A DNA stretch of 64,000 bases from Neptunomonas japonica JAMM 1380 (GTDB lineage Bacteria > Pseudomonadota > Gammaproteobacteria > Pseudomonadales > Balneatricaceae). A program made the translations under genes and the position numbers. The stretch lies in NCBI RefSeq assembly GCF_016592555.1, contig NZ_AP014546.1, forward strand, positions 3,110,501 to 3,174,500, read 5' to 3'. The notes beneath the pieces are model-generated. The model was given only the letters and a program-made list of their open reading frames with translations. It had not been told where the DNA came from and searched no databases. Positions 3,767 to 43,416 of the stretch are shown one piece after another (the first letter of the stretch is position 1; each line of letters starts with the position of its first letter).

Positions 3767-3803
3767 GTACTCACATCAACTTAGATTACTGGAGTAACGC
3801 AAC

Positions 3804-4091: not shown

Positions 4092-4107
4092 GTGTTTTCA
4101 CACAGTA

Positions 4108-4309: not shown

Positions 4310-4332
4310 AAAATGTATTTTATTGACATTTT
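4310..4332. promoter_or_regulatory. NsrR-like operator 1 of hmp
   Basis: AAAATGTATTT, one base, then ATTGACATTTT fits the palindromic NsrR consensus (AAnATGyATTT-N-AAATrCATnTT) at nearly all positions of the left arm and 8 of 11 of the right. It overlaps the -35 of the hmp promoter. NsrR is the NO-sensing Fe-S repressor that controls hmp in many proteobacteria. The assignment rests on the match and the downstream gene. Confidence 0.65.
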
Positions 4333-4351
4333 AATGCGCATCCATTTTAAT
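4323..4351 (+). promoter_or_regulatory. Promoter of hmp
   Basis: TTGACA (4323-4328), a 17-base spacer and TTTAAT (4346-4351): a strong sigma70 pair about 35 bases before the hmp start. NsrR-like sites overlap both the -35 and the region after the -10. Confidence 0.7.
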
Positions 4352-4369
4352 GCATCCAAAATACATCTA
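4347..4369. promoter_or_regulatory. NsrR-like operator 2 of hmp
   Basis: TTAATGCATCC, one base, then AAATACATCTA. The right arm matches the NsrR half-site almost fully; the left arm keeps ATGCAT. It lies over the -10 and probable transcription start, 37 bases after operator 1. Confidence 0.55.
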
Positions 4370-4384
4370 TTAATGAGACATTCT

Positions 4385-5596
4385 ATGCTAGCGTCAAATA
4401 TCGACATAATTAAACAAACCGTACCTATTATTCAAGAGCGTGGGGAAGAGATCACTCAGCATTTCTATCACCTATTATTTGAAGAAAATCCTGAACTCAA
4501 GGATATATTCAATATGGCAAGTCAAAAGAATGGCCGCCAGCCTGCCTCATTAGCTAACGCCATTCTTGGGTATGCAGCACATATTGATCGATTAGAAGCG
4601 CTTGGGGATGCCGTCGGTAGCATTGCAGCAAAACATTTCAGTTTGGACATTCAACCCGAACAATATCCTATTGTTGGTCGAAACTTGTTAAAAGCTATTC
4701 GGGAAGTATTAGGAGCAGACGTTGCAACTGACGCTGTAATCAACGCATGGGCAGAAGCTTACGGGCAATTAACAAACATTCTCGTGGGTGCAGAAAAGAA
4801 ACTATATGACGATGCACAAAATGCCCTAGGTGGTTGGTCTGGTTTTAAACCTTTTCGTGTCGTTCAAAAAATTGCTCAAAGCAGCGAGATCACATCCTTC
4901 TATTTACAACCCGTTGATGGACAACCATTACCTCATTATAAACCTGGCCAATATATCAGCTTAAAAATTACTGATGCTAGTTTGGAGAATACAGAACTGC
5001 GCCAATACAGCTTGTCTGATGCACATAATGGCGAACACTACCGTATCTCTGTCAAGCGAGAACCAACACTACAAGATGATATTCCTGCTGGCGTCGCTTC
5101 TAATTTCCTTCACGATAAAGTCAATGTAGAAGACACTATTTTAGTCCACGCGCCTGGCGGAAATTTTTATTTAGATGAATCAGATAAGCCTCTTGTCCTT
5201 ATCAGTGGAGGTGTAGGCATCACTCCATTGCTTAGCATGCTAAATGACTTGACCCTACAAAGTTCAACACGAAAAATCACATGGTTGCATGGCACCCGTA
5301 ATCGTCAAACCCATGCGTTTCGTGAACATATCAATGCCTTAAATAACGACTTACCTAACCTGACAAAAGTTGTTTTTTATGATGACGTGACAGATGCTAT
5401 AAAAGAAACTGACTATAATCATGAAGGTTATATGACAGCTCAGCTACTAAAAGAAAGCTGCCCATTAGATGCCGAATTCTATTTCTGCGGACCGCTACCT
5501 TTTATGCAAGCAATATACACGACGCTACGCCAATTAGGCGTTGCCGAAACACAGTTAAACTTTGAAATTTTTGGCCCGAGTGAGTCACTAAACTAA
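4385..5596 (+). CDS. hmp: Flavohaemoprotein, nitric oxide dioxygenase
   Basis: 403 residues from ATG 4385. The frame extends back to 4313, but that part lies over the promoter, and family members start at this Met. The N-terminal globin domain (about 1-140) has distal Tyr28 (HFYHLLF) and proximal His84 (AAKHF, then QPEQYPIVG as in E. coli Hmp). The FAD domain shows RQYSLSD (about 225) and the NAD domain GGVGITPLLSML, ending in EIFGPSE. It converts NO and O2 to nitrate using NAD(P)H in the cytoplasm. The two NsrR-like operators suggest induction by NO, fitting the nitrate respiration genes in this window. It lies between two secreted-peptide cassettes but has its own promoter and terminator. 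Confidence 0.95.
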   Translation: MLASNIDIIKQTVPIIQERGEEITQHFYHLLFEENPELKDIFNMASQKNGRQPASLANAILGYAAHIDRLEALGDAVGSIAAKHFSLDIQPEQYPIVGRNLLKAIREVLGADVATDAVINAWAEAYGQLTNILVGAEKKLYDDAQNALGGWSGFKPFRVVQKIAQSSEITSFYLQPVDGQPLPHYKPGQYISLKITDASLENTELRQYSLSDAHNGEHYRISVKREPTLQDDIPAGVASNFLHDKVNVEDTILVHAPGGNFYLDESDKPLVLISGGVGITPLLSMLNDLTLQSSTRKITWLHGTRNRQTHAFREHINALNNDLPNLTKVVFYDDVTDAIKETDYNHEGYMTAQLLKESCPLDAEFYFCGPLPFMQAIYTTLRQLGVAETQLNFEIFGPSESLN

Positions 5597-5611
5597 TTTA
5601 AACCTCCTCTT

Positions 5612-5646
5612 AAAAGGCTCTTTATTCTCGTGATAAAGAGCCTTTT
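5612..5646 (+). terminator. Intrinsic terminator of hmp
   Basis: AAAAGGCTCTTTAT and ATAAAGAGCCTTTT pair perfectly (14 bp) around a 7-base loop, with T residues in the 3' arm. Confidence 0.9.
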
Positions 5647-5779
5647 CAATAGAAACGATAAGCAAACATATAAGATATTAAAGTCTACAGTAAGATTAAC
5701 ACGGCCATATAAAAACTTTTTCTAGCATTATTAAACATTATAATTAAAAACAGTCTGATTTTTTATAATTTATAATTTT

Positions 5780-5810
5780 TTTCAGTTTCATTTCAGTAAC
5801 GAGTTATAAA
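5780..5810 (+). promoter_or_regulatory. Direct-repeat operator/promoter, cassette copy 2
   Basis: TTTCAG at 5780-5785 and 5791-5796 (11-base spacing), then TATAAA at 5805-5810, the best -10 of the three copies. A -35 at normal spacing would fall inside the repeats, so activation by a factor bound there is likely. Confidence 0.6.
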
Positions 5811-5847
5811 GTACACACACCAACTTACATTACTGGAGTAACACAAC

Positions 5848-6135
5848 ATGAAAACTTTACTTAATGCCGCACTAATCACTTCAGCCCTTTTCGCTTCACA
5901 GGCTTTTGCTGGTGGATTAAATGATTTATCTACTCAATCTGTAGAGCACAACTTAGCCTCAGGTGTTACTTCACAGACTCAAGGCTTTACAGCAGTCACT
6001 AGCCCTTTATCTAACTTAGGTGCATCAACAGAAACACATTTCGCAACAGACACACACGCCACAAACACTGTTAGCAGCACAGTCGCAAGTTTTGGCTTAG
6101 AAGTACCAACAAGCTCAACTGAAGCACTGCTATAA
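5848..6135 (+). CDS. Small secreted protein, paralogue 2 of 3
   Basis: 95 residues, same design as the genes at 3804 and 6723: signal peptide ending in AFA, mature part starting GGLND, and the conserved motifs STQSVEHN, SPLSNLGAS and VASFGLE, ending EALL. It has the same ACTGGAGTAAC leader and GGAG ribosome site. Differences from copy 1 are spread through the mature part (for example ETHFATDTHATN), so the copies are diverging, not recent identical duplicates. The function is unknown. Confidence 0.8.
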   Translation: MKTLLNAALITSALFASQAFAGGLNDLSTQSVEHNLASGVTSQTQGFTAVTSPLSNLGASTETHFATDTHATNTVSSTVASFGLEVPTSSTEALL

Positions 6136-6153
6136 TGCTACCCATATAAAAAC

Positions 6154-6170
6154 GGGAGGCTAAACCTCCC
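6154..6170 (+). terminator. 3' hairpin of cassette copy 2
   Basis: GGGAGG and CCTCCC pair around CTAAA. It is the counterpart of the hairpins after copies 1 and 3 and has no real T run. Confidence 0.6.
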
Positions 6171-6201
6171 AGAAGCACATATATATCAAATAGTTATCTA
6201 C

Positions 6202-6585
6202 CTACAAAGAACGACATAACTTCGGGATATCTCTAATACCGACTCGGTTTCCATCTGGATCTGAAATATTAATCGTTCTTCCCCACTCATATGTCTCTAT
6301 TTTTGCCGCAATACCGTATTGAATAACTTCTTCTAGAGCCCTTTCAATATCAGTGACATTAAAACGAATCTTTGTTGAGTTTTCAGATATTGACTTCTGT
6401 TTATCTTTAGCTAAACCTCCAGTTTCTACCAGCAAGTAAGCGCCACCAAATTCGAAGCTAGTCAGCTTAAAGTCTCCTTCATCTTTTTTAAAAAGAACTT
6501 CAAGCGAAAATAGGTTCTTATAAAAGGAAACACACTCATCATATTTTTCTGTATTAATAATGATCCCTGTTTTATTGATATCCAT
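6202..6585 (-). CDS. VOC/glyoxalase-fold protein
   Basis: 127 residues. It has the beta-alpha-beta-beta-beta pattern of the vicinal oxygen chelate superfamily: YDECVSFYKNLFSLEVLF near the start, FGGAYLLVET in the middle, and the end motif TINISDPDGNRVGI. A pre-start AAGGAA supports ATG 6585. Such proteins include glyoxalases, dioxygenases and antibiotic-binding proteins; the substrate cannot be told from sequence. It lies opposite to, and between, secreted-peptide copies 2 and 3. Confidence 0.85.
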   Translation of the reverse strand: MDINKTGIIINTEKYDECVSFYKNLFSLEVLFKKDEGDFKLTSFEFGGAYLLVETGGLAKDKQKSISENSTKIRFNVTDIERALEEVIQYGIAAKIETYEWGRTINISDPDGNRVGIRDIPKLCRSL

Positions 6586-6654
6586 ACAGCATTCCTTTTA
6601 AAAAGCACTCGCAATAAAAATTCAATTAATAAAATAATCATATTTTATATTATT

Positions 6655-6685
6655 TTTCAGTTTCGTTTCAGTAATGATCGTTAAA
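6655..6685 (+). promoter_or_regulatory. Direct-repeat operator/promoter, cassette copy 3
   Basis: TTTCAG at 6655-6660 and 6666-6671, again 11 bases apart, with GTTAAA at the position of the -10 (6680-6685), the weakest of the three. The downstream leader is conserved up to the start codon. Confidence 0.55.
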
Positions 6686-6722
6686 GTACACACATCAACT
6701 TACATTACTGGAGTAACAGAAC

Positions 6723-7010
6723 ATGAAAACTTTACTTAACACTGCACTAATCACGTCAGCCCTTTTCGCTTCACAGGCTTTTGCTAGTGGATTAAATGAC
6801 TTCTCAACTCAGTCTGTAGAACATAACGTAGCAACAGGTGTAACTTCACAAGCTCAAGGCTTTGCAGCAGTCACTAGCCCGTTATCTTACTTAGGCGCAT
6901 CATCAGAAGCACATTTTTCAACCGGCATACACACAACAAACACAGCTAGCAGCTCAGTCGCAAGTTTTGGCTTAGAAGTACCAACAAACTCAAGCGAAGC
7001 GCTACTATAA
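6723..7010 (+). CDS. Small secreted protein, paralogue 3 of 3
   Basis: 95 residues, third member of the family. The signal peptide ends in AFA and is followed by SGLNDFSTQSVEHN; the later motifs are SPLSYLGAS, EAHFSTG and VASFGLEVPTN, ending EALL. Its GGAG leader matches the other copies. It is closer to copy 2 than to copy 1 in the C-terminal half. No known domain is visible. The VOC gene on the other strand separates it from copy 2. Confidence 0.8.
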   Translation: MKTLLNTALITSALFASQAFASGLNDFSTQSVEHNVATGVTSQAQGFAAVTSPLSYLGASSEAHFSTGIHTTNTASSSVASFGLEVPTNSSEALL

Positions 7011-7029
7011 ACTCAAAAAATACAGCAAT

Positions 7030-7046
7030 GGGAGGCGAGGCCTCCC
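7030..7046 (+). terminator. 3' hairpin of cassette copy 3
   Basis: GGGAGGC and GCCTCCC pair around GAG, the same core as after copies 1 and 2. Confidence 0.65.
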
Positions 7047-7075
7047 AAAAGCTTACAAGTAATAAAAATACTCAA

Positions 7076-28742: not shown

Positions 28743-29774
28743 CTACCCCCCTGTCATGTTCATAAAACGAACGACCTGAGGCTGGTCATCCTGGTAAAAA
28801 GTATGCTCTTTGGGTTTATATTGCATAGCATCAATAACCGTCTGCTTTAAACGCTCCGTATCCCCTGGATAACGCCTGACTACTGCTCGTAAATCCACAG
28901 CATTATCACGTCCCAAACATAACAACAGTTGCCCCTCAACCGTTAGACGAATACGGTTGCAGGTCTCACAGAAATTATGACTATGTGGCGATATAAAACC
29001 GATACGAGTATCACTCTCTTGCATGCGATAGTAGCGTGATGGGCCACCTGTTTTTTCATCACTTGCAATCAATGCATAACGTGTTTGAATGCGCTCAAGC
29101 ACTTCATCACTGGAACAAAATGCTTCTTGGCGGTTATGCGAACTAACCACGCCTAATGGCATCTCTTCAATAAAACTAATATCAATATTTAACTCTCTTG
29201 CAAAATCTACTAGGTCAATAACTTCATCATCATTGCGACCTTTCAAGACAACCGCATTCAACTTGATTCGCTCAAAACCTGCAGCAGCGGCTACACGTAT
29301 TCCATCGAGTACCTGATCAAGCTTTTCTCGTCGAGTTAATGCAGCAAAACGCAGAGGGTTTAAAGAATCCAAACTAATATTTAAGCGCTTAATGCCAGCT
29401 TTTAGCAAAGGCTCTGCATAACGCACTAATTGAGAACCATTAGTTGTCATAGTAACTTCATCAAGGCCAGGTAAAGCCCCTAATTTTTTTGCTAAAGAGA
29501 TGATGTCGTGACGTACTAGCGGCTCACCACCCGTTAAACGGATCTTTTTAACGCCTAGCTCACTAAACGCTTGACCTATAGTCGCTAGCTCTTCTAAAGA
29601 AAGAACCTGCGCACGTGGAAGAAACTTAACATCTTCAGACATGCAATAAACACAGCGAAAATCACAACGATCAGTCACTGACATACGCAGATATTCAATG
29701 CGACGACCAAAACCATCGACCAACTGTGTATCCGATAAACTAGCAATGCTGTCGTTAATTGTGTTGCCCGTCAT
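28743..29774 (-). CDS. moaA: GTP 3',8-cyclase MoaA
   Basis: 343 residues. The radical-SAM cluster Cys are C37, C41 and C44 (CDFRCVYC). The C-terminal substrate cluster is C-x2-C-x13-C in [18 protein letters not shown], and the protein ends in the required Gly-Gly. The GGEPLV loop for SAM binding is present (about 80). It converts GTP to 3',8-cyclo-7,8-dihydro-GTP, the first step of molybdopterin synthesis. It forms an operon with the DNR-type regulator. No moaC, moaD or moaE is in this window. Confidence 0.95.
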
Positions 29775-30144: not shown

Positions 30145-30582
30145 ATGACAACGAAACTAATCGTAGGCTTGGATGGTAGTGAGCCGGGAGATAGAGCGCT
30201 CGAACACGCTAAACGCTTATCAAAACTTATTGGCGATTGCACAATTGAATTGGTGTATATCATTGAGTGGTCTCCATATAGTTTTCAAACACCCGAAGAA
30301 AATGCCATGCGCCACAAACGTAGAGAGCAAGAAATAAAAACAGCGACTGAGCGTGTTATAGCTCCCGCATTAGGCGCTCTTAAAAAGGAAGGATTCACCG
30401 CAAAGGGTCGTGTTTTACATGGTGATGCGGCAGAGTTATTGAACTCAGTTGCCTCTAAAGAAAAAGCCGAGCAAATTATTGTAGCCAGATCTAAGGAAAG
30501 TGGCTTTGCGGCAAAACTGTTTGGCAGCGTCACGGCAAAATTGGTGATGAGCGCCAACGTTCCCGTCACCGTCGTAAACTGA
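30145..30582 (+). CDS. Universal stress protein, UspA family
   Basis: 145 residues in the Rossmann-like Usp fold: KLIVGLDGSEPGDRALEHA at the N-terminus and the C-terminal phosphate loop region ARSKESGFAAKLFGSVTAKL followed by VPVTVV. The usual G-x2-G-x9-G(S/T) loop is incomplete, with Ser-Lys where the first Gly would be expected, so ATP binding is uncertain. A perfect AAGGAG ribosome site precedes ATG 30145. It is 9 bases upstream of the symporter gene and surely shares its transcript. Confidence 0.9.
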   Translation: MTTKLIVGLDGSEPGDRALEHAKRLSKLIGDCTIELVYIIEWSPYSFQTPEENAMRHKRREQEIKTATERVIAPALGALKKEGFTAKGRVLHGDAAELLNSVASKEKAEQIIVARSKESGFAAKLFGSVTAKLVMSANVPVTVVN

Positions 30583-30591
30583 GGTTTTATT

Positions 30592-32145
30592 ATGCAAACT
30601 AAAAAAATAATAAGTTGCGCAATCATCTCCCTTATTTCGTTTTTTCAAAGTTCAGTTGCACTAGCACAAAGCAGTATTGATCAAACGGTAAATGAAGCCT
30701 TTTCATGGGCCACTGGCTGGTTTGTTAACCTGATTTTTGCACCACTACCGGGTACCAGCTTTCCATGGATAGTTTTATGGTTAGTAACAGGTGCTACCGT
30801 ATTCACACTCTACTTCGGATTTATCCAGTTCCGTGCCATTCGTCATTCTGTTGCCCTTGTGAAGGGCGATTATTCTGACCCTAATGATGCAGGTGAGGTA
30901 TCTCACTTTCAAGCACTCGCTACAGCCTTATCTGGCACTGTCGGTTTAGGTAATATCGCCGGTGTTGCCGTAGCCGTAAGCATTGGTGGCCCGGGTGCTA
31001 CTTTTTGGATGATTCTGGCTGGTTTAATGGGCATGGCATCAAAATTCACAGAGTGTACTCTGGGGGTAAAGTACCGCAATGAATATGCAGACGGTACGGT
31101 ATCAGGTGGCCCTATGTATTATATCTCTAAAGGTTTTAAGGAACGCGGTGTCCCAGGTGGGAAACCCCTTGCAGGTCTATTTGCGATATTTTGTATTCTA
31201 GGCTCACTAGGTGGCGGAAACATGTTCCAAGCGAACCAGGCACATGCGCAGATTAGCAGTATTGTGGGTAGTTACCCCGGCTGGATCACAGGTGTTATTT
31301 TTGCACTGATCGTTTTTGCTGTCATTGTTGGTGGAATTAAATCAATCGCCAATGTTACTGAAAAAATTGTTCCATTCATGGGGCTAATGTACGTTGCAGC
31401 CGCATTAGTCATTATTTTAATGAACGCTGATAAAATTGGCTGGGCTTTTGGACAAATTTTCGAAGGCGCTTTCACAGGGTTGGGAATTGCCGGTGGTTTT
31501 GTCGGAGCCCTAATTCAAGGCTTTAAGCGCGCCGCATTCTCTAACGAGGCCGGAGTGGGTTCTGCCGCTATTGCTCACTCTGCTGTACGAACTAAAGAGC
31601 CAATCACAGAAGGCTTAGTCTCTCTGCTTGAACCATTTATTGATACAGTTGTGATCTGTACCATGACGGCATTGGTTATCATTATTACAGGGCAGCTAAC
31701 GACTGACCCCACTTCAGGGCTGTATCTGATTGGTGAAAATGGTCGAATTATTACGGCAGATGGCTCCTCTGGTGTTGCTTTGACATCTGCTGCCTTCTCA
31801 TCCGCATTCAGCTGGTTCCCGTTCGTACTGGCTATTGCCGTTGTCCTGTTCGCCTTCTCAACGATGATTAGCTGGTCTTACTATGGCTTAAAAGCGTGGA
31901 CCTACCTGTTCGGTGAAGGAAAAACGACAGAGCTAGTTTTTAAAATAATCTTCTGTATTTTTGTAGTGATTGGTGCCGCCGCCAACCTTGGCCCTGTCAT
32001 CGATTTCTCCGATGCGGCCATTTTTGCCATGGCCGTTGCCAACATCATCGGGCTTTACTTCTTAATGCCAGTCGTTAAGAAAGAGTTGACTTCATACATG
32101 TCACGTCTGAAATCAGGTGAAATTAAGAAGTTCGATAATCACTAA
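30592..32145 (+). CDS. Sodium:alanine/glycine symporter, AGCS family
   Basis: 517 residues. An N-terminal hydrophobic segment resembling a cleaved signal peptide (ending ALAQ) precedes about ten membrane helices. Family signatures are ATALSGTVGLGNIAGVAVA, GGPGATFWM and FKRAAFSNEAGVGSAAIAHS. It imports alanine or glycine with Na+ across the inner membrane. It is co-transcribed with the universal stress gene and ends at a strong terminator. It converges on the carbonic anhydrase remnant, which suggests that agcS and can were once neighbours. Confidence 0.94.
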   Translation: MQTKKIISCAIISLISFFQSSVALAQSSIDQTVNEAFSWATGWFVNLIFAPLPGTSFPWIVLWLVTGATVFTLYFGFIQFRAIRHSVALVKGDYSDPNDAGEVSHFQALATALSGTVGLGNIAGVAVAVSIGGPGATFWMILAGLMGMASKFTECTLGVKYRNEYADGTVSGGPMYYISKGFKERGVPGGKPLAGLFAIFCILGSLGGGNMFQANQAHAQISSIVGSYPGWITGVIFALIVFAVIVGGIKSIANVTEKIVPFMGLMYVAAALVIILMNADKIGWAFGQIFEGAFTGLGIAGGFVGALIQGFKRAAFSNEAGVGSAAIAHSAVRTKEPITEGLVSLLEPFIDTVVICTMTALVIIITGQLTTDPTSGLYLIGENGRIITADGSSGVALTSAAFSSAFSWFPFVLAIAVVLFAFSTMISWSYYGLKAWTYLFGEGKTTELVFKIIFCIFVVIGAAANLGPVIDFSDAAIFAMAVANIIGLYFLMPVVKKELTSYMSRLKSGEIKKFDNH

Positions 32146-32152: not shown

Positions 32153-32182
32153 AAATGCCACCTTCTTTTGAAGGTGGCATTT
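32153..32182 (+). terminator. Intrinsic terminator after the symporter gene
   Basis: AAATGCCACCTTC and GAAGGTGGCATTT pair perfectly (13 bp) around TTTT. Confidence 0.9.
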
Positions 32183-32208: not shown

Positions 32209-32348
32209 TTATAACGTGTTCATGCAGTAGATATCAGGGATATCATCCAAGCCACTGATATCAACATTAAGTTCTTTAATAATGCCATCATCAATGCTGT
32301 AGATCCAACCATGTACTGTCAGTTCATGGCCATTTTTCCAAGCTCTTT
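32209..32348 (-). pseudogene. 3' remnant of carbonic anhydrase gene can (left direct repeat)
   Basis: These 140 bases match the last 140 bases of intact can (43277-43416) at all but two positions, and both differences (32214 and 32230) are synonymous. The fragment encodes the final ~46 codons from RAWKNGHELTVHGW to the stop. It has no start codon or upstream sequence, so it is not expressed as an enzyme. The match ends abruptly at the stop codon on one side and after CTCTTT on the other. Confidence 0.93.
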
Positions 32349-32432
32349 AAGTACAAACAATTAGAAAGAACCATAACGCAGATATTCTAACTATATATTG
32401 CTTAGCAGCTTCAGTAATTGGGAGTTTGTCTA

Positions 32433-35400
32433 TCATTCTCCCGCTTTCTTTTCAGTAGACTTTTCTGTTTCACTTTCATCAGAAACTGCCGCTTCAATTC
32501 CTATTGAAATATCGGACTTTTCAGCCTTAATTTTGACTTCCTTCCCAATGATTTCCTTCTCATCTTTAGCGATTATATTAGCTTCCTGATTAACAACGTT
32601 TTTACCCTTTATGCTCACTTTGCCACCTGAATCAATGGATGTCGCATCCGAATCAATTTTATTGGCGTAAGCTGCATTGCCACTGATAGAACCTTCTTTT
32701 TTACTACCTTCACTGCCCTTTTCAGCATCTATGCTCCCTTCAACGCCAAAGGATGTCGTGGTCGCAGTACTCTTAGCCGCTTTAAGATTGACATTGCCGC
32801 CAGCATCAACCGTAGTATCACCATCGGACTTCAACTTAGTTCCTTCAAAACTAGCATCCTTACCCGCACTGATGTTAATACCGCCGCTACCCGCTTTTAT
32901 ACTGCCCGCTTGAGCCGTACTACTGGAGCTATCCTCTTGTGAATACCCTCCACTTGCTGCTGCACCTTTACTCCCTTTGCTGCTACTCAGCTCCACACTA
33001 GCATCGATAGTAGACTTGCTGCTTTCAGCTGTATCACGTGCAGCTTTGAAATCAACATTACCGCCAGCAGCAATATCAGCCTTACCACCGGCCTCTATAT
33101 TGGTTCCTTCAAAGCTTGCATCATCTTTGGTCTTAATAGTAAGGTTTCCACCTGCATTAATACTTCCGGTGCGCGCAGTACTTGTACTGCCACTTTCACC
33201 TTCATTACCGTATGAGGCTTCAAGGCTACCACCGGCTTTACCGACGACATCTACTTTAAGCGCTGCATCAATCTTGTTGGCATCTGAAGACATGCTAGTT
33301 GTGTCTTTAGCAGCCTTATACTCCAAGGAACCTGCTTCAATATTGATATCACCGCCAGACTCAAACTGCGTACCTATCAGCGTGGTTTTTTCTTTCGACT
33401 TGGAATTAATACTGCCACCTGACTTGTATTTAGTAGTGACGGCAGTGGTCGAGCCTTCACTTTCGCTATCGATACTTCCTTCATATTTAGCACGCAAGCC
33501 TGCACCTGCGCCGGCATCTGATTCGGTTTCACCTTTTGCATTACCACTCGCTTCAGCAGAAGCACTGGCACCCACACCAATTTTTGCATCATGACTAGAC
33601 GAGCCTTTACTGGAGAAGGTTGAGTCATTTGCCTCTATCTCCTTGATCTCACGCGCCGATTGAATAATATCGCCTCCCGCTTCAATCTGCGTGCCCTGAT
33701 CCACAATGGTATTTTCTGCGTTACGTGTAAAATCACCGCCAGACTTGAAGCTGGTCGTAACGTTAGTCACCGAACCTTCTATACTGGATTCTTTCTCATT
33801 TTTAAAACGAAGACCAGCACTCGCATCGGCCGATACCTTACCACCAGCCTCTCCATTGGCTGGATCACCACCTACATGAATCTTGCCTGCATCCGCCTCA
33901 GCGCCTGCTTCAGCACTCACTTCCCCATCGATATAAAGCCCAGCAGTATTAGTTTCCTTCGATGAAGTTTTCAGTGTTATATCTTCTGCCGCCTTATTGA
34001 CAATATCAGTAGCTTCAATATTCATGTCACCACCGGATTCAACCTCTGCCCCCACAAACACAGCCGTCTCTTTTGCCTTAATCGACATGCTACCGCCAGA
34101 CTTCAACGTGGAACTTGAATTAGTAAGGGAGTAGTCCGTCGTCTCTTCATTCTCAGTTCTAGCACCGATGGTTGTGGTACCACTTGCTTCAGCAGAAGCG
34201 TTCGCGCTAGCGCTTGCATTTGTGCCCACCGTCCCTGCTTTGGCCTGTGCATCTGCACCGGCTTCTGTATTAGCTTCACCTTCGTTATAAATACCGACTG
34301 AGGTACGCACAGTTTGAGTATTAGTCCACTCTTCATTGCGCCCTGTCAGTACTTCTACGTTTTTAGCATCCAGCTCCATATCCCCACCAGACTCAACATT
34401 TGAGCCTTGAACTTTAATCGTCCCTTCCGTTGTAGCCTTTAAATTACCGCCGACTTTAAAGTTTGAAGAAACACTCGTGTTAGTACCTGCTTGGGTAGAG
34501 GTTTTAGTCGTTTCTGCAAACTTGATGTCTGACGTACCAGATGCTTCCGCACTGGCTTCGGCACTTGCTGTAGCATTCGCACGCCCTGGCCCACTCTGCG
34601 AGTCACTACTTGAATCAGAGCCAGAATCAGACTCACCAGCACTACCGATTTTCATGTAAGTTGTTGTTTCTGTAACGGTGTTGGTACGCGTCTCATCTAA
34701 ACCATCCAGAATATTAATTCCTTCCTTGGCATTGATGTCCGCATCCCCAGCAATAGTTACATCTGAGCCCTGCACCGTCATGGATTTATCAGCTTTGACG
34801 GTAGCGTTGCCACCCACTGTCAACGTCGACCCAGAGTTTGTACCTTTGAAATCATCAGTAGTTATTTTTTCGGTACCGGCTACTCCACCACCTACGCCCA
34901 AACCAGAGGTTTCCGTCACTGTTTTACTGGTAGTTTTGTCTTGACGGGATAAGACATTGAAATCGCCACCCGCATCCACACTGAGGTCACCACCAACAGT
35001 GGCATTGCTACCCGCAATCGTTGTGTCACCTCCGCTTTTAATCTTGAGATTGCCACCGGATACCAACGTAGAGCCAATATTCTTCTCGGTAGTCGTTGTG
35101 TTGCTGGTTGTTGTGGTCTGAAGCCCATTACTGGAAGATGAGTGTTTGGTATCTGTCGTCTTATCAATAATCGTGTCAAAGGTCACATTACCACCTGCCG
35201 CTAACGACGCATCACCACCTGCCTTAACTTCCGCTCCTAGTACGGTAATATCTTTCTTAGCATCCAGATCTAAATCGCCTGTCGCTTCAATGCCTGCGGT
35301 CTTACCGATAGACGTCGCATAATTCTCAGCACCACCGCTACCGCTAACCAATGTCTTATTCTCGATGCTGCCCTCAATCGACTTAATCGAAACATCACCA

Positions 35401-38400
35401 CCTTTTATCGTGCCACTGGTATTAGTAATGTCTCCTTGAGCAGTAATGTTGAGCGAGTTTACCCCGCTAATCGTTCCGCCCGTATTACTCACGGTGGTCA
35501 AATTCATTTCAACATTGTTGCCAGCAATGACTGCACCCGTCTCTATCGAATCACGAGTAGCCGCAGAGAGATAAACGACCGGAGCCAATACTTTCTGTCC
35601 TGCCACGGTAGTTTCCACCATCCACACAACATCACTTTCGAGGTTGGCAATCTGTGAAGATGTTAATGCTTCACCAAAGACGAAGCCTGCACTTTCCCCC
35701 TCAGTGACCGCTTGATCCATTAAGCGCTTCATCTGATCCGCTTCATTACCGTAGCCTTTGATAATGTTGTTGCCAGTTTGGCTGATCAACTGCTGTTGAA
35801 TCAGATAGGCCTCATAATTGGAATCACCTAAGCGCTTGATAACTGTATCAGGGTTATAGCCATAGCGATTCGCCATATAATCAGAACCAACAAAATTTGA
35901 ACCCACAGCAAATAGCGGATTAGCTTCTATCAGGTAGGTAGAATTAGAGTCCTGGCTAATTACGAAGTAGCCATTAGGGTTTGTTGGCAAAGCAATTACC
36001 AAGCCACTAAAGCTGACAGCCGGCGCGCCGTCAGTCGTCGTAATACCACTAGCAGCCGATCCGCCCGAAGTACCAGAAGAGGCTCCTGTCATTGAAGAGC
36101 CGGTAACACCACCTGTACCATCAGTGCTATTGGTTAAGCTGGTACTAGCACTACCTGATGCGGTTAGGGTCGTGGTTGAAGTAGCCCAAGGTGAGCCTCT
36201 GTTAACCAAGCCAAAGCCTGTAGCAACTAAAGTATTGGCATAAATGCCTGCAGTATATGGGTTAGGTTGCGCAGAAGATGCACTTGCAGGGTCGTCATAG
36301 GTAATCACCCCTGCATCACAACTGACTAAACCACAGTCTTGATACTGAGTGGCGGTTTGAGTCCAGGCTTTGGATTCAAGAGAAAGATCGTCATTGGTAA
36401 AGGTGCCTGTTCCCGCAATAGTCAAGGTTCCGGAATTAGCTGCTAGCACCCCCCCGCCATTGACAGCAGAAGTGAAGCCAGAAATTGTCATATTTCTGTT
36501 TGCAATAATCTGAGGCTTAGTCGGGGGTATCGAGCTACTAAAAGATTGGGTTTGAGATCCCCATTTTTTATAATATTGCCAAGCGTCATTGGGCCACCCA
36601 AATGAGCCAGTTGTACTCGTGATTGTCCAGCTACCATTACAACTACCTGTGCAAGGATCCCAGGAAACCACACCCCAAGAACGCGAAGGAACTCCACCCG
36701 TGATCACGTTATTAAAGCTCGTCGACACAATAGTGATATCTTGCAACGCATTGATACGGTTGTTATTGGTAAACGTCGTACCCGCTATCAGGTTCAAGCT
36801 ACCATTAGAATCGATTGTACCAGTGCTATAGTTGGTAAAGGTGCCTGTTGCGCTAGCATTAAGCTGAATGCCGGCATATAGCGCACCACTGTTATCAACA
36901 GGCCCACCGGTAGCGTTCAGGTTAAGCGTATCTAGAGCGGAAAAGCCGCCTGTAGGCGTGTTGTATATCCAAGGGGCGTTGAAATCAAGTATGCCACCAG
37001 AGTGAATTGCTCCAGTATTATTAAAGCCATTTGCCAACGTGATAGATGTTGTTGCCCCCCCAGAGGTGTTACCTACAATTTTAGAAGAACTGCCTCCAAA
37101 AGTTAATGTATCCGAGCCCACCCTCATTGCACCTAAACTGGTGAGCATAGCGCCATTGTTAATGTTAAGGTTATTTGCAGTAATACCTACGGTATTGCCC
37201 AGCATGACGCCACTACTTCCCACCGTAATATCAACACCGCTGCCACCACCCAACCCTTTTACATCTAACAATCCGCCCGATTGTATGCGGCCCGTGTTAC
37301 TCACAGTATAATAGCTATCGGTGCCACGTACAGAAAGGCCACTGCCTGTTAATAACTGGCCAGAATTGTGCACAGAAGTTGCCACGTTAAGAGCCGCGTC
37401 GCCTTGTGACTGTAATGTTCCGGTGTTATTGATACTATTTGCTGTAATCGTACCGCTACCGGTGTTTGTATCCGCAAGCGTCAGAGTTCCACTGTTAACA
37501 ACGTTGCCACTCACATTGATCGTACTTGTTGCCGCTCCGCCTTGAATCACCCCAGCATTACTGAGGCTTGCCAGCGTAAATGCCAATTCATCACCCAGGA
37601 TATAGCTGCCGCTGAGGGTAGTTAGTGCGACATTATTCCCACCAATTGTCAGCGTATCTCCGATAGCGCTGCCTGCTTGTAAATACCCCCCCGACTGGTC
37701 AGTCACTGCTAAGCCACTACCAGTCGACATTAACATAAGATCATTATTGGCAATAATTTTACTAGCATTAGTAAGGCGAGCACCGGAAAGGTTTACTACT
37801 AAATTTTGAGCCGACTGAATAACACCGCCACCCGTATTACTCAATGTCGACACGTTTAATGTCCCAGTTTGGCTGGAGGAGCCCGAGGCAATTAATTGGC
37901 CACTATTGGCAAGTGCGCCAGTCGTTATCGTCGCACTCTGGTTTGTTTGCAGTGTTCCCGAGTTGGTCAAACTACCCGAATTAGTGGTCAAGTCTTCAGT
38001 CGAAAACAAGGTTCCTAAGTTATTGATCAAGTTAGAGATTACCAGAGCGATCTCTGCTGCCGACTGCAGCGTACCACTGTTATCTAGGCTGTTAGCCGTA
38101 ATGTTGCTAGTTCCAGTGCCACCGGTGGCTAATGTTAAAGTACCTGAGTTATCAACTGCGCCGCTGGCAACAAGGGTGCTAAGCCCTGCCCCACCCTGAA
38201 TTAATCCTGCGTTAGTTAGACTAGACAAAGATAAAACAAGTTGGTCGGCCAAGATATTTGCACCGCTGTTATTATTTAGTGAAACTGCTGTACCGCCAAT
38301 AATCAGCGTATCACCATTGGTGCTTCCCGCTTGAATAAAGCCGCCATTCTGATTGGTGACAGTCGCTCCTGCACCGGTAGAGGTGAGCGACAGGTCGCGT

Positions 38401-40832
38401 GCTGCAATAATGGTGTTGGCGTTAGTTAGCGAGCTGCCAGATACATTGATAGCCAGATTCTGAGCCGACTGAATAACACCCGCGCCTGTATTGCTTAACG
38501 TGGCAACATTCAGTATCGCTCCAGCACTGGATGAATCCGAGGCGATAATCCCCCCTGTATTGGACAGTGCACTAGTACCAATCGTACTACCTTGGTTGGC
38601 TTGCAATGTGCCTGAGTTGGTGAGGCTACCCGAGTTACTGCTCAACGTAGTTTTAGCAAGCAACGTCCCCGAGTTTACCAGCCCATTGCCAATTGCCAAT
38701 GCCATATTAGCATTGGATTGTAACGTGCCGCTGTTATCCAGCCTGGAAAGGATGATATCAGTCGTATTGCCAAGAACCGTACCCGACTGCGTACCAAATG
38801 TAGCATTAGCACCGGCGATGGAGAGCCTACCACCTGCTTGAATGATCCCAGAATTCGTATTGCTGATAGCAAGTGCGGACGTCCCAGCATTAACCGACAA
38901 GTCCTGGGTTGCCAGTAACTTACCCGTATTATCAAGCGTATCTATTACATTAAGCACTAAGTCTTCTTTGGACTGTAAAGTACCACTATTATTGAGTGAG
39001 GAGAGTGTGAAATTACCGGACTGACCGGCTGTATCTGAGGCAATGAATGTGCCCGCGTTAATGAGCTCGGTTGCTGTTACAGTTGTGCCTGTCGTGCCCT
39101 GAACCGTTGCACCTATCTGGTTGTTAACACTGGCGGCGTTGACTGAAATATTACCATCAGCAATCAACGTACCGCTGTTAGTAATATTTCCTGTTCCTGT
39201 ATTTACCTTATCCGTAATATCTAACGTAGTTTTGGCATGCAACTCGCCGCTGTTGTTAAGCGTTCCATCAATACGTGCAGTGACACTGCCTGTATCAGAG
39301 GTGATTTTACCCGCGTTATTCAGGCCATTACCTGCCGTCAGGCTCAGGTTTCCGTTCGTGGTCTGAATACCTTGATCAACACCAGAGGTAGAGCTAATAG
39401 TGCCAGCACTTGAAGCTAAGGCCATATCACCCGTCGAACGTACTGCGGCGTTAGCCAATGCAAGGACATTAGTCGTGTTAAGATCGACCGTCGTTCCTGC
39501 ATGGATCGTCGCCCCATTCGCCCCAACCGAAAGACTGTCAAACGTTCCTGATAATGCCTTGCCTGCACCCCAGACACTGTCATCAATGCTCGCCTCCCCA
39601 GACGCAACTAAAGTATTATCAGCTTCTGCATAACGGGCTTTATCAGTCGTCGATACATCACTCAAAGTGTCAGCCGTAACAGCTATGTTGTTAGCAGCGT
39701 ATAGCTCGCCTTCTGATAGCTTTACCTGGCCACTAGTAGCTGAGATATCTAAATCATGACCTGCGGATATTTTGGCATCCAAACCCTTAACAAAAACATC
39801 ACCACTACCGCTAGTCGAGGTTGACGAGATAGCGACATCACGGGCAGCACTGATAGCCGATTGTATTTCTACTTTCCCGGCACTGCTTATCGTAAAGTCA
39901 TCGGCACTGGCTGCCGCTTCTCCCAACATACGTACACCAACACCCGCTTCGGTAGCAATAATGCGAATACGACCGGCATACATGCCGCCAAGGGCGGTAG
40001 AATCAATAGCATATGAGGGTGCGGCACCATCAGCGGCCACGGTGCCTGTTGTATTACGACTATCATAGTTCCAACTATTATTACCGGTTGTGATGCCAAG
40101 CTTGCCCGTCGGGTTGGTATTAATATTACCTTCGACTTTGACTGAACGAGTCACAATATCCAGTATTTGTTGTGCAGTGGCATTGGCACCCTTGGCACCA
40201 ATCAAGACATCCCCACTCTTGACGTTAAACCCGGTGAGACTGCCATCTGCACCGATACTCGATGTACCCGTGGTCAACGTAGCTCGATCGGTGTTTATAA
40301 ACCCACAACCATCACAGGTAATACCATAAGGGTTCGCTACGATGACATCAGCCTTACCCCCCAGTACCTCTGTGAAACCCGCCAGTGTGCTGCGATTAAC
40401 CGATACCACTTCATTCAGAATAACTGCGGCTTCTTTCACCAAGTTTAGGTTAGACGTGACCTGCCCTGCCAGTTGAGACTGGCGGGCAATTTGACTGTTG
40501 TTACCGTTGTTCAGTACTAATCCATTTGCCTCGACATCATAGCGGGTATAACGGTTATGGGAGAGACCTGAAGTATTCGCTGTATCGATATTAACAACTG
40601 GCACGCCGTTCGCTGATATATAAGCCTTCGTTTTACCGCTGGCAGGTATCACTGTCGTGGCGGGCTGATCCGCCAATGCTGACTCAATCCCCAAACCGGA
40701 TGATATCAATGCAACAAGCAGCGCTTTACCCACAGCTCGCCCCCCTCCCTTTCCGCGAGAATGTGTTGTTTCTGCCACAACAACCCACGTTCCTGTACGA
40801 ACATTCCAGATAACACGGTGAATTTTATTCAT
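32433..40832 (-). CDS. Filamentous haemagglutinin-family exoprotein (TpsA)
   Basis: 2799 residues. An ESPR extended signal (MNKIHRVIWNVRTGTWVVVA) precedes a signal peptide cleaved near residue 54 (SALA). The TPS haemagglutination domain (about 55-330) contains VIVANPYGITCDGCGFIN (residues 163-180). Residues ~450-1300 are N-S-G-T-L beta-helix repeats, including a 218-residue tandem unit. Residues ~1700-2799 are acidic, Gly/Ser/Ala/Thr/Lys-rich repeats (GGDxxIxA) without Cys. It has no VENN motif, no C-terminal toxin and no immunity gene after it, so an adhesin role is more likely than contact inhibition. AGGA precedes ATG 40832; fhaC ends 9 bases upstream. Confidence 0.93.
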   Translation of the reverse strand: MNKIHRVIWNVRTGTWVVVAETTHSRGKGGGRAVGKALLVALISSGLGIESALADQPATTVIPASGKTKAYISANGVPVVNIDTANTSGLSHNRYTRYDVEANGLVLNNGNNSQIARQSQLAGQVTSNLNLVKEAAVILNEVVSVNRSTLAGFTEVLGGKADVIVANPYGITCDGCGFINTDRATLTTGTSSIGADGSLTGFNVKSGDVLIGAKGANATAQQILDIVTRSVKVEGNINTNPTGKLGITTGNNSWNYDSRNTTGTVAADGAAPSYAIDSTALGGMYAGRIRIIATEAGVGVRMLGEAAASADDFTISSAGKVEIQSAISAARDVAISSTSTSGSGDVFVKGLDAKISAGHDLDISATSGQVKLSEGELYAANNIAVTADTLSDVSTTDKARYAEADNTLVASGEASIDDSVWGAGKALSGTFDSLSVGANGATIHAGTTVDLNTTNVLALANAAVRSTGDMALASSAGTISSTSGVDQGIQTTNGNLSLTAGNGLNNAGKITSDTGSVTARIDGTLNNSGELHAKTTLDITDKVNTGTGNITNSGTLIADGNISVNAASVNNQIGATVQGTTGTTVTATELINAGTFIASDTAGQSGNFTLSSLNNSGTLQSKEDLVLNVIDTLDNTGKLLATQDLSVNAGTSALAISNTNSGIIQAGGRLSIAGANATFGTQSGTVLGNTTDIILSRLDNSGTLQSNANMALAIGNGLVNSGTLLAKTTLSSNSGSLTNSGTLQANQGSTIGTSALSNTGGIIASDSSSAGAILNVATLSNTGAGVIQSAQNLAINVSGSSLTNANTIIAARDLSLTSTGAGATVTNQNGGFIQAGSTNGDTLIIGGTAVSLNNNSGANILADQLVLSLSSLTNAGLIQGGAGLSTLVASGAVDNSGTLTLATGGTGTSNITANSLDNSGTLQSAAEIALVISNLINNLGTLFSTEDLTTNSGSLTNSGTLQTNQSATITTGALANSGQLIASGSSSQTGTLNVSTLSNTGGGVIQSAQNLVVNLSGARLTNASKIIANNDLMLMSTGSGLAVTDQSGGYLQAGSAIGDTLTIGGNNVALTTLSGSYILGDELAFTLASLSNAGVIQGGAATSTINVSGNVVNSGTLTLADTNTGSGTITANSINNTGTLQSQGDAALNVATSVHNSGQLLTGSGLSVRGTDSYYTVSNTGRIQSGGLLDVKGLGGGSGVDITVGSSGVMLGNTVGITANNLNINNGAMLTSLGAMRVGSDTLTFGGSSSKIVGNTSGGATTSITLANGFNNTGAIHSGGILDFNAPWIYNTPTGGFSALDTLNLNATGGPVDNSGALYAGIQLNASATGTFTNYSTGTIDSNGSLNLIAGTTFTNNNRINALQDITIVSTSFNNVITGGVPSRSWGVVSWDPCTGSCNGSWTITSTTGSFGWPNDAWQYYKKWGSQTQSFSSSIPPTKPQIIANRNMTISGFTSAVNGGGVLAANSGTLTIAGTGTFTNDDLSLESKAWTQTATQYQDCGLVSCDAGVITYDDPASASSAQPNPYTAGIYANTLVATGFGLVNRGSPWATSTTTLTASGSASTSLTNSTDGTGGVTGSSMTGASSGTSGGSAASGITTTDGAPAVSFSGLVIALPTNPNGYFVISQDSNSTYLIEANPLFAVGSNFVGSDYMANRYGYNPDTVIKRLGDSNYEAYLIQQQLISQTGNNIIKGYGNEADQMKRLMDQAVTEGESAGFVFGEALTSSQIANLESDVVWMVETTVAGQKVLAPVVYLSAATRDSIETGAVIAGNNVEMNLTTVSNTGGTISGVNSLNITAQGDITNTSGTIKGGDVSIKSIEGSIENKTLVSGSGGAENYATSIGKTAGIEATGDLDLDAKKDITVLGAEVKAGGDASLAAGGNVTFDTIIDKTTDTKHSSSSNGLQTTTTSNTTTTEKNIGSTLVSGGNLKIKSGGDTTIAGSNATVGGDLSVDAGGDFNVLSRQDKTTSKTVTETSGLGVGGGVAGTEKITTDDFKGTNSGSTLTVGGNATVKADKSMTVQGSDVTIAGDADINAKEGINILDGLDETRTNTVTETTTYMKIGSAGESDSGSDSSSDSQSGPGRANATASAEASAEASGTSDIKFAETTKTSTQAGTNTSVSSNFKVGGNLKATTEGTIKVQGSNVESGGDMELDAKNVEVLTGRNEEWTNTQTVRTSVGIYNEGEANTEAGADAQAKAGTVGTNASASANASAEASGTTTIGARTENEETTDYSLTNSSSTLKSGGSMSIKAKETAVFVGAEVESGGDMNIEATDIVNKAAEDITLKTSSKETNTAGLYIDGEVSAEAGAEADAGKIHVGGDPANGEAGGKVSADASAGLRFKNEKESSIEGSVTNVTTSFKSGGDFTRNAENTIVDQGTQIEAGGDIIQSAREIKEIEANDSTFSSKGSSSHDAKIGVGASASAEASGNAKGETESDAGAGAGLRAKYEGSIDSESEGSTTAVTTKYKSGGSINSKSKEKTTLIGTQFESGGDINIEAGSLEYKAAKDTTSMSSDANKIDAALKVDVVGKAGGSLEASYGNEGESGSTSTARTGSINAGGNLTIKTKDDASFEGTNIEAGGKADIAAGGNVDFKAARDTAESSKSTIDASVELSSSKGSKGAAASGGYSQEDSSSSTAQAGSIKAGSGGINISAGKDASFEGTKLKSDGDTTVDAGGNVNLKAAKSTATTTSFGVEGSIDAEKGSEGSKKEGSISGNAAYANKIDSDATSIDSGGKVSIKGKNVVNQEANIIAKDEKEIIGKEVKIKAEKSDISIGIEAAVSDESETEKSTEKKAGE
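37400..38480 (-). repeat. Tandem 654-bp repeat inside the exoprotein gene
   Basis: GGxVIQSAQNL begins at 38480 and again at 37826, exactly 654 bases (218 codons) apart. The similarity carries on through SLTNAG.IQGG and NSGTLTLA to about 37400. The copies differ at many codons, so the duplication is old. The outer limits are approximate. Confidence 0.75.
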
Positions 40833-40841
40833 AACAATATC

Positions 40842-42620
40842 CTAAAATGAGTAAGCCGCACGGAACCACGTTTTATTGGACTCTTTCTTCATCGAGCCCG
40901 GCAGAGTTAGTGGTCTGGTATTAATAAGTTCCAACGATGCACCGCGCCAGTTAGTCGAAATACCGACGACCATGCCCGACAATCGCCCCTGTGGAACATC
41001 ATCTGCACGGCTACTCACTTCACCGAGGTCATATCCCGCATAGAAACGGGCAGAGACAACTTCATCACCCATTGTGACGGGTTTACGAATGGAGACCTCA
41101 TTGCGCCAGAAGTAACCGTTATCACCTGATATCGTGCTATCTACGAACCCTCGCACTGAATAGAGGCCACCAATGGATATTTGCTCAGAGCCATAGAGAG
41201 CACCCGGAGATTTTTGGGCAGTTAGCTGACTCGTAAAACTGACATGCTCATCAAACAATCGAAATGGGCGCATATAGTTAAACCCAGCCTTAATCTTTCT
41301 AAACTGAGCTTGCGGTGCCCATTCAGGCAAGTTACTAGGGTCTTTTAAGGCCCCTGCTATACTCAACCCTTGAGCATAACCAAGGTTAAGTGAAAGAATA
41401 CCACCAGCAAAATCTGTGCTGAGGTTAGCGTCGATATCAAGCACGGTTAACCGTCGACTACTCACGCCTAAGAATTGATTATCAAGATAGTTTCTTGCAT
41501 TTTTACCGGTCAGTGAACCCGACAGTAAAACACGCGTAGATTGATCACGATACATCACTCGATCAATATTCAAACTATCTGTTCTATTATTGCCGCTTGC
41601 GGAAAGACTAAGTCCACTAGGCACACTGATCATACTGTCATAGCGCGAATAACTGGTTGCTAAAGAAACCGTGGTGTAACCAAAAGGAATACTCAGATTA
41701 AAACTATCACTTCCAGAAAATTTACGACCCGAGTCGCCCGGTGTCGACTCGCGGTGTGTAGCAGAAAACGAATCATTAAAACCCAAAAGATTATCAACAG
41801 TGAAGGTCAGGCCTGTTTGCAACTCGCCTGTTGATTTTGAACCCTGATTATCTGTGGATATATAATAATGAAACCTAGAGCTGGGCTGATTATATACAAT
41901 CACCTGACTTGCCCCGGCAGTCTCACCCGGTTGAATATCAAGTTGTGCGTTGTTGGAGGCCAGCCGGTTTATCTGGTCAATACCTTGCTCCAAATCACGC
42001 AGGTTCAACAGATCACCCTCCGAACTTGGAAATACATTTCTGACAGAGATACTATGAGTGTCTCCGTCTTTAATCATGATTGTTTCCACAACGCCTTCGA
42101 TCACTAAAATTTCCAAAATACCGGTACTTAAATCTTGTGCTGGCAAATAGGCGCGCGTAGTGACGTAACCTCTATCGATATAATCCTTCGTTATCGTTCC
42201 AAGAATTTTTTCGATATCAACGACGTTGAGGCATCGACCATTATATTCATCGGCAATATGCTGACGTGCAGTCTCAGAAAGATGAAGTGCACCACTGATA
42301 ACAACCGTTTGAATTTTACGACAATCCGCACCAAGAGACGGCACGGTTATTTTCGGCATAAGCTGTTTGGTATCCATGCCATCCACACCTTCAATACGGC
42401 GCCTGGCAGCGTCTTGGTCCTTTTGAACACGGTCCTGTGCTTGGCGCTGGATAATCTCTAATTGACGTTGTGCGGCTTCAATATCTGCTGGAGTTGCTGC
42501 AAATGTCACGCTGCTCATCAATACACTCATTACAAGCCAAAAACAAAGCCTTATATGCATTGATGCCGTATTCCCCTTCAACATAAAAAAATATTTTAAA
42601 TAACTGTACATGTATGGCAC
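40842..42620 (-). CDS. ShlB/FhaC/HecB-family outer membrane transporter (TpsB)
   Basis: 592 residues. A GTG at 42620 has AGGAG at good spacing and is preferred, although later Mets (residues 13 and 21) would also give a signal peptide ending TFAA. The mature part has a coiled N-terminal linker (EAAQRQLEIIQRQAQDRV), two POTRA domains (about 95-250, starting IQTVVISGALHLSE) and a 16-strand barrel ending in Phe (FRAAYSF). The loop motif VRGF is present in YSVRGFVDSTISG, where Arg plugs the pore. It secretes the exoprotein encoded immediately downstream. Confidence 0.94.
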   Translation of the reverse strand: MPYMYSYLKYFFMLKGNTASMHIRLCFWLVMSVLMSSVTFAATPADIEAAQRQLEIIQRQAQDRVQKDQDAARRRIEGVDGMDTKQLMPKITVPSLGADCRKIQTVVISGALHLSETARQHIADEYNGRCLNVVDIEKILGTITKDYIDRGYVTTRAYLPAQDLSTGILEILVIEGVVETIMIKDGDTHSISVRNVFPSSEGDLLNLRDLEQGIDQINRLASNNAQLDIQPGETAGASQVIVYNQPSSRFHYYISTDNQGSKSTGELQTGLTFTVDNLLGFNDSFSATHRESTPGDSGRKFSGSDSFNLSIPFGYTTVSLATSYSRYDSMISVPSGLSLSASGNNRTDSLNIDRVMYRDQSTRVLLSGSLTGKNARNYLDNQFLGVSSRRLTVLDIDANLSTDFAGGILSLNLGYAQGLSIAGALKDPSNLPEWAPQAQFRKIKAGFNYMRPFRLFDEHVSFTSQLTAQKSPGALYGSEQISIGGLYSVRGFVDSTISGDNGYFWRNEVSIRKPVTMGDEVVSARFYAGYDLGEVSSRADDVPQGRLSGMVVGISTNWRGASLELINTRPLTLPGSMKKESNKTWFRAAYSF

Positions 42621-43276
42621 CCAGCTCTCCTTTTTATAATTATCTGCATATTTATAATATTTTAGCCGTCAACTTTTACTTAAATAATCCCTTACTAAAA
42701 ATGAGCTAAAATAAACATTTACTGATTTATTTAAGCTTTTAAGACAACTATTCATCCATATAATATCGAGCAACTCCAGCTATTACTTATAGGAACACAG
42801 CGTGTCATCGACGCTAATTCATATGATTTTAAATAAAATCGTATATAACGAACTTTCTGATTTGTGTCCCGGAAGGAAAGGTGAATAAAATTCATCTAAA
42901 GTTAAGCTAACACAAAAAATAACGAATAAGTACTTCTCATTAGCCGTGCTTACTGAAGATTCATATGATTTTTTTATTTTAAGTGGATTTTTATCAGTAC
43001 AAACCTGAATTAAATTTTATTGGGAATAAATATTTCTATTAATATTTTCCGTAAAAAGCCACGTAAATTCATCTTTACGTAAAATAAATCTTCTATAGGT
43101 CTTAATCGTTAAACAGTTGTTATGAATTATGAAGGTTACTTTTTTATTTGAGGCCCTACACCATTATAAAAATAAATAACTCTCTTTCAAAACGGAAGTA
43201 ACCAATAAATCAGCTCTGAATTGGTAGCGGCCAATAAAACTTAGCCACTACACATTTAGTCACTTAAGGGGGGGGG
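42621..43276. other. Very AT-rich region upstream of the TPS transporter gene
   Basis: 656 bases without a gene. It contains a 14-bp direct repeat ATTCATATGATTTT (42817-42830 and 42959-42972), an inverted repeat ACGTAAA/TTTACGT (43061-43080), and a run of nine G (43268-43276) directly against the can stop codon. The composition is much more AT-rich than its neighbours, which fits acquired DNA and silencing by H-NS-like proteins (inference). Confidence 0.6.
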
Positions 43277-43416
43277 TTATAGCGTGTTCATGCAGTAAAT
43301 ATCAGGGATATCATCCAAGCCACTGATATCAACATTAAGTTCTTTAATAATGCCATCATCAATGCTGTAGATCCAACCATGTACTGTCAGTTCATGGCCA
43401 TTTTTCCAAGCTCTTT
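43277..43416 (-). repeat. Right copy of the 140-bp direct repeat (within intact can)
   Basis: This is the partner of 32209-32348, same orientation, 11,068 bases apart. It begins exactly at the can stop codon. Confidence 0.93.

Follow-up and report, generated by a model that had tools for sequence, protein, structure and literature searches.

A repeated carbonic anhydrase gene end beside a two-partner secretion locus in Neptunomonas, and its possible part in gain, exchange and loss of the locus

Here, we describe a two-partner secretion locus (fhaC and fhaB) that lies between two direct copies of the 3' end of the carbonic anhydrase gene can, and we propose, as the account that we consider probable on balance, an old capture of fhaCB beside can that was later homogenized, multiplied, exchanged and perhaps lost via homologous recombination. 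The window (the whole stretch of DNA analyzed, 64,000 nucleotides) contains the repeat; comparison with other Neptunomonas genomes revealed an empty site in a sister genome, a breakpoint at the same can codon and a two-unit contig pattern in Neptunomonas antarctica, can copies that are most alike within a genome, and a divergent usp-symporter block beside the locus. A copied can tail may thus let ordinary recombination add, swap and remove secretion genes without a dedicated enzyme.

The repeat and the genes between its copies

A repeat scan of the window recovered a single family of 140-nt direct repeats, the two copies of which (Table 1) are identical at 138 of 140 positions, share the same orientation, lie 11,068 nt apart from start to start and both represent the last 140 bp of can, as the first-pass annotation had described. 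They are the sole two copies in the genome: a search of all 4.1 Mb at E ≤ 0.001 returned just two matches (4e-68 and 2e-65), which excludes a chance origin. One copy ends an intact can, which scores 285.4 bits with NCBIfam PRK10437 (carbonate dehydratase; cutoff 251), and the other is the orphan can'. A run of nine G residues (43268 to 43276) sits on the stop-codon side of the intact gene, exactly at the repeat edge. The copies differ at 32214/43282 (A/G) and 32230/43298 (G/A), and both differences are indeed synonymous on the can strand (TTA/CTA, Leu; ATC/ATT, Ile), though this is weak evidence since 34% of transitions in the 140-bp stretch are synonymous and two of two would be so by chance with a probability of about 0.12. 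The annotation had taken this synonymy as a hint that the two ends came from different functional can genes, which the wider comparison does not support: the window copies match each other at 138/140 positions and the other compared Neptunomonas can ends at no more than 122/138, a closeness that suggests gene conversion or local copying.

Table 1. Features of the window around the repeated can end
Feature	Position	Strand	Remarks
moaA, conserved gene on the far side of the variable gap	28743..29774	-	adjoins can in 12/16 outgroup loci
usp, universal stress protein gene	30145..30582	+	with the symporter gene, an insertion between moaA and can
Sodium:alanine (AgcS-type) symporter gene	30592..32145	+	convergent with can; within divergent block
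Terminator-like hairpin, gap between symporter gene and orphan can'	32153..32182		13-bp stem; also present at the N. japonica empty site
can', orphan 140-bp can 3' end (repeat copy 1)	32209..32348	-	138/140 identical
Junction between fhaB stop and can'	32349..32432	-	can side broken at the codon shared with N. antarctica
fhaB, large exoprotein, 2799 aa	32433..40832	-	extended signal peptide (ESPR), TPS domain, haemagglutinin repeats (Fil_haemagg_2)
fhaC, ShlB/FhaC outer-membrane transporter of the two-partner secretion pair, 592 aa	40842..42620	-	PF03865, PF17287, PF08479
Spacer between can and fhaC, AT-rich, 29.7% GC	42621..43276	-	sigma-70-like site 43190-43163, 11/12 matches
can, intact beta-carbonic anhydrase, 209 aa	43277..43906	-	last 140 bp (43277-43416) are repeat copy 2

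That two-partner secretion genes fill the interval was confirmed by Pfam, with ShlB and POTRA domains in fhaC and PF05860, PF13018 and PF13332 in fhaB, so that a TPS-domain exoprotein adjoins a POTRA-bearing ShlB/FhaC transporter. Pfam profiles at E ≤ 0.001 revealed no toxin domain in FhaB, and the 84 bp between fhaB and can' hold no immunity ORF of at least 80 aa; judged by Pfam, the locus does not have the C-terminal toxin domain followed by an immunity gene that marks contact-dependent inhibition systems (CdiBA/BcpAB). As to the source of fhaC, a search of 390 genomes sampled from the order gave no match at E ≤ 1e-110 outside the window genome, and 369 sampled from the class held one match at 47% identity. 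Among the best 120 of 896 FhaC relatives were two on unnamed contigs (96% and 85% identity), one in N. antarctica (80%) and one in Sulfurirhabdus autotrophica (64%); viral contigs held no FhaC. Our literature search found no paper linking Neptunomonas with two-partner secretion.

The stop of the orphan can' is 63 bp from that of the convergent symporter gene, in a gap with a terminator-like hairpin, and a hairpin scan found none after the intact can; counts of hairpins and promoter-like sites over the whole scan were not above those in shuffled sequence, and sigma-70-like sites in the region, including that in the spacer between can and fhaC, occur in chance-level numbers. Rfam models gave no match at gathering score between window positions 28000 and 46000.

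The can-moaA gap in relatives and the exchanged block beside the locus

For an outgroup, 116 genomes of the family were searched, and 16 loci that carry a close can were taken from genera other than Neptunomonas; in 12 of these, from five of six genera, can and moaA are neighbors in the order nar/nifM-can-moaA with a gap of at most 0.9 kb (one of the contigs begins inside can). A further locus (L020) has 2.3 kb between the two genes, and the remaining three (L014, L017 and L027) have no moaA behind can within the stretch examined. The comparison within the genus covered eight Neptunomonas genomes of different species, among which N. japonica DSM 18939 is closest to the window genome by rpoB and gyrB, followed by the Neptunomonas metagenome-assembled genome OB1. 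In OB1 and one other genome (G002) can directly adjoins moaA. The gap holds symporter-usp plus three genes (GNA1162-like, DUF4810 and CsgG) in N. japonica, a P450 gene plus symporter-usp in N. qingdaonensis, and fhaCB plus symporter-usp in N. antarctica and the window genome, always between nifM/can on one side and moaA on the other; two genomes (G004 and G005) lack a close can, with best matches at 34 to 36% identity. Given the can-moaA adjacency in outgroups and the varied cargo in four Neptunomonas genomes, the gap is a Neptunomonas hotspot with changing cargo, in which symporter-usp is itself an insertion. Between moaA and usp, no can remnant scored above shuffled sequence in any of the four genomes. 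In N. qingdaonensis the P450 gene lies between symporter and can (locus L004, 2985 to 4402) and is bracketed by two copies of the symporter terminator hairpin (score 41, against 26 for the best of 500 shuffles), where N. japonica has one copy; this resembles a second insertion into the gap, with part of the old junction duplicated around it.

The first-pass annotation had predicted that a relative without fhaBC would have can directly followed by the symporter gene, and N. japonica DSM 18939 has this arrangement, the two genes converging with 70 bp between their stops. When the window flanks are joined via one repeat copy, they match this empty site in a single 3.9-kb alignment (3,899 columns, 7 gaps, 86.9% identity), which means that the junction between orphan and symporter is the old one, and that the intact can faces newer DNA. 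On the reading proposed here, N. japonica would have lost the fhaCB unit rather than never having had it. Against this reading, fhaC was found in only two of the eight genomes of the genus, so that several losses or transfers must be assumed.

Divergence at four-fold sites bears on both the age of the locus and exchange beside it. Between the window genome and N. antarctica, the values for fhaC (0.489) and for the N-terminal (0.459) and C-terminal (0.472) parts of fhaB fall within the range of the core genes measured (0.42 to 0.71; rpoB 0.440, gyrB 0.543), and do not point to a recent transfer from one lineage to the other. Between the window genome and N. japonica, symporter (0.475) and usp (0.460) stand far above their surroundings (rpoB and gyrB together 0.162; 12 other surrounding genes 0.14 to 0.30), and DNA identity drops to 84% across this block against 92% and 93% in its flanks, which points to exchange of the usp-symporter block, in either the window strain or its sister. 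Relative to the rpoB and gyrB background, itself a low one, nine of those 12 genes are nominally raised (p < 0.05), and nifM and the moa genes are slightly raised in this one strain pair. The can gene (0.412) is raised in every compared pair, so that it is by itself no sign of exchange and was not counted in the block. Symporter distances pair the window genome with N. japonica, and usp distances make it the odd one out; we infer rather than observe which genome received the exchanged DNA, i.e., the direction of transfer.

A second case in N. antarctica

The arrangement in N. antarctica S3-22 was pieced together from draft contigs. An intact can lies on contig C26, contig C40 carries a can' fragment behind the stop of fhaB1, and on contig C54 the stop of fhaB2 is 128 bp from that of the symporter gene. 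The stretches behind can and behind can' are 80 to 88% alike, and the terminal 49 bp of the single fhaC contig (C10) equal the start of both the can and the can' contigs, so that these two contigs continue into one and the same fhaC sequence. At its opposite end, C10 has no overlap with either fhaB contig, which makes the fhaC-fhaB1 and fhaC-fhaB2 joins presumptive. Beside the symporter gene lies a decayed can' that scores 42 against the genome's own can' (best of 1000 shuffles, 26), 30 and 32 against other can ends, and 25 against that of N. japonica, a value reached by 2 of 1000 shuffles. Relatives with fhaBC at this site and no second can fragment, which the annotation had named as evidence against its reading, were thus not encountered, as even the fhaB2-symporter junction keeps this decayed remnant. 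Together, the contigs suggest the order can-fhaC-fhaB1-can'-fhaC-fhaB2-(can')-symporter, i.e., a tandem pair of [fhaC-fhaB-can'] units; a single unit at can, with another copy elsewhere or on a circle, is a possible alternative that would be expected to give the same contig pattern.

At the junction between fhaB and can', the break in can falls on one and the same codon in N. antarctica and in the window. The sequence leading from fhaB to can' is only weakly alike in the two (score 24, reached by 10 of 1000 shuffles), and the shared breakpoint therefore rests mainly on position. Over their shared C-terminal part, FhaB1 and FhaB2 of N. antarctica diverge by 0.469, as much as either does from the window FhaB (0.472 and 0.521), so that the second unit is no simple recent duplicate and, with one fhaC contig and two divergent fhaB genes, the N. 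antarctica array would be a mosaic. Its can and can' agree at 130/140 positions, and the window copies match the N. antarctica ones at no more than 113/140, a grouping by genome that fits gene conversion or separate duplications.

Recombination at a copied gene end and the explanations set against it

We propose the following sequence of events. In a can-moaA hotspot in which cargo comes and goes, an fhaC-fhaB pair would have entered 3' of can before the N. antarctica lineage split off or near that time, and a further copy of the 140-bp can end would have come to lie behind fhaB, creating the [fhaC-fhaB-can'] unit that the shared breakpoint implies. Because can and can' are direct repeats, homologous recombination, presumably RecA-type, could then convert, multiply, delete or exchange the unit. 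Ordinary recombination of this kind may have homogenized can and can', added the second unit in N. antarctica, deleted the unit back to can-symporter to leave the structure seen in N. japonica, and exchanged it with other Neptunomonas DNA, and the conserved flanks would also allow exchange of whole blocks, such as the usp-symporter block swapped in the window strain or its sister. Excision of the window locus via its repeat is likewise possible on the arrangement of the sequence. If true, a cassette beside a copy of the flanking gene's end offers a simple route to scar-free loss, tandem gain and transfer that depends on host recombination only and, as the contigs of N. antarctica suggest, a way to stack and shuffle FhaB variants within a single genome. 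A bolder version, which we regard as doubtful, would make [fhaC-fhaB-can'] a self-contained, recombinase-free cassette. The housekeeping gene fragment that it carries would supply the homology for landing; the cassette would spread within Neptunomonas in linear or circular form, integrate at can through RecA recombination, accumulate in tandem as in N. antarctica while exchanging FhaB variants, and exit without a scar.

The main rival, in our judgment unlikely but to be taken seriously, is a decayed site-specific island, i.e., an element with a tyrosine integrase that once inserted at the 3' end of can with a replacement gene end and then lost its integrase, leaving a CIME-like remnant with the can ends as att sites and, in N. 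antarctica, a second unit added by tandem accretion. It would fit the footprint equally well in form. Prophage e14, as outlined in PMC6379469, integrates site-specifically at icd of E. coli and leaves a 163-bp orphan icd', and the window locus closely matches this structure, with a duplicated gene 3' end of similar length, intact on one side and orphan on the other; the break at the same codon in two species, and the old, different FhaB1 and FhaB2 alleles expected from accretion, agree with such an island. Unlike e14, the interval here holds just two secretion genes, a relative apparently has two units, and no recombinase was found. The annotation had stated that the locus lacks an integrase, and our search for tyrosine recombinases bore this out, with none within about 101 kb (the nearest PF00589 match lies at genome position 3254793); nor did the six interval ORFs scanned on the plus strand, out of 11 with 80 aa or more, give any Pfam match at E ≤ 1, or ORF lists of six outgroup loci, inspected by eye, an integrase recognizable behind can. 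No viral contig encodes the window can, and the six phage records that match it all do so at under 60% identity. Moreover, the high identity of can copies within each genome needs conversion or local copying in any case. Cis-mobilizable elements (CIMEs), in the account given by PMC7563491, keep att sites and lack recombination genes, and the window locus is like them in its target-gene-derived repeats on both sides, in the lack of recombination genes between them and in possible tandem accretion; it differs in that no related integrative and conjugative element (ICE) or integrase was found for the can site, where an att role of the repeat is putative.

The annotation's proposal of an insertion at can stands insofar as the sister has the empty site, and is not supported as a recent, single event in this strain. 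If a circle with fhaCB and the 3' end of a can gene had integrated in Campbell fashion into the window strain's can, exactly the observed topology would result, with an empty site in the sister species and repeats identical at 138/140 positions, but N. antarctica shares the breakpoint codon, fhaCB divergence is at the level of core genes, the usp-symporter block alongside has been exchanged and the can copies are not visibly from different sources. The footprint is thus probably older than a recent integration, and the single-circle scenario appears improbable to us. We give similarly little credence to tandem duplication and deletion, whereby fhaCB first lay between can and the symporter gene, a duplication from inside can to behind fhaB made can', and deletions followed. 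The middle junction of N. antarctica is the product expected from such a duplication, and orphan gene ends a few kilobases downstream of intact genes occur elsewhere (P. helleri can and OB1 gyrB, see below), yet by itself it accounts neither for the can' remnant between fhaB2 and the symporter gene nor for the match of the window's orphan-symporter junction to the empty site.

Returning to recombination at the copied can end, close parallels in setting are hotspots without mobile elements that are described in outline in PMC5635113 (2017), with recombination at flanking core genes. The can-moaA gap, compared here across eight genomes of different species, shares their conserved flanks, changing cargo, lack of a detected integrase and divergent block beside the cargo, and differs in that its cargo has a copied end of the flanking gene next to it and could multiply or excise via direct repeats. 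The bcpAIOB megacircle transposon of Burkholderia thailandensis, a secretion-type locus that moves as a circle between direct repeats according to the summary in PMC6350997, is similar in that genes of the two-partner secretion type lie between direct repeats; it has a circular intermediate, and the locus here may have one. The repeats of that element are IS2-like, with a transposase, and it spans about 210 kb, whereas the unit here is 11 kb with no immunity gene seen, and its 140-bp repeat is a housekeeping gene end with two copies in the genome rather than an insertion sequence of a composite transposon.

Further gene-end orphans were sought in 105 can loci, of which 103 had a can match (the two without were N. 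antarctica contigs C54 and C10); eight of the 103 duplicated other loci in the set, two came from one genome (N. antarctica) and two (L011 and L026) were cut at contig ends. As these loci reach at most about 10 kb past can, and some much less, an orphan at the window's distance of 10.9 kb would be missed. One real extra can end was found besides that of N. antarctica, in Pseudomonas helleri DSM 29165 (locus L052, 12613 to 12808), where the last 196 bp of can recur at 96% identity about 2 kb downstream. Between the copies lies a transporter gene, which we take to be AtoE-like and which is present behind can in relatives too. Other rows with an apparent extra can were discarded as a self-match of the N. 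antarctica fragment, a match of 15 residues in L021 (E 0.009) and, in L107, short matches in inverted orientation. In the Neptunomonas genome OB1 (locus L108, 10292 to 10442), a 151-bp orphan of the gyrB 3' end, with 90% identity, lies 2.9 kb behind the intact gyrB and about 220 bp from the contig end, and the DNA between the copies is present in N. japonica without the orphan. Because their interval genes occur in relatives without an orphan, we rejected both the P. helleri and the OB1 case as clean insertions. A scan for direct repeats (80 bp or longer, 75% identity or more, within 30 kb) covered 480 kb of the window genome (about 12%; the window, one 16-kb stretch and five 80-kb segments) and found no further gene-end orphan, the three pairs besides the can pair all lying between small whole ORFs; in 96 other loci (1,585,281 bases) the repeat scan gave 20 pairs, including one in the P. 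helleri locus. Elsewhere in the window, positions 3735 to 7047 hold three copies of a repeat of about 393 bp, each with a 95-aa ORF (at 3804, 5848 and 6723) and with short minus-strand ORFs in between, which resemble a small tandem gene family.
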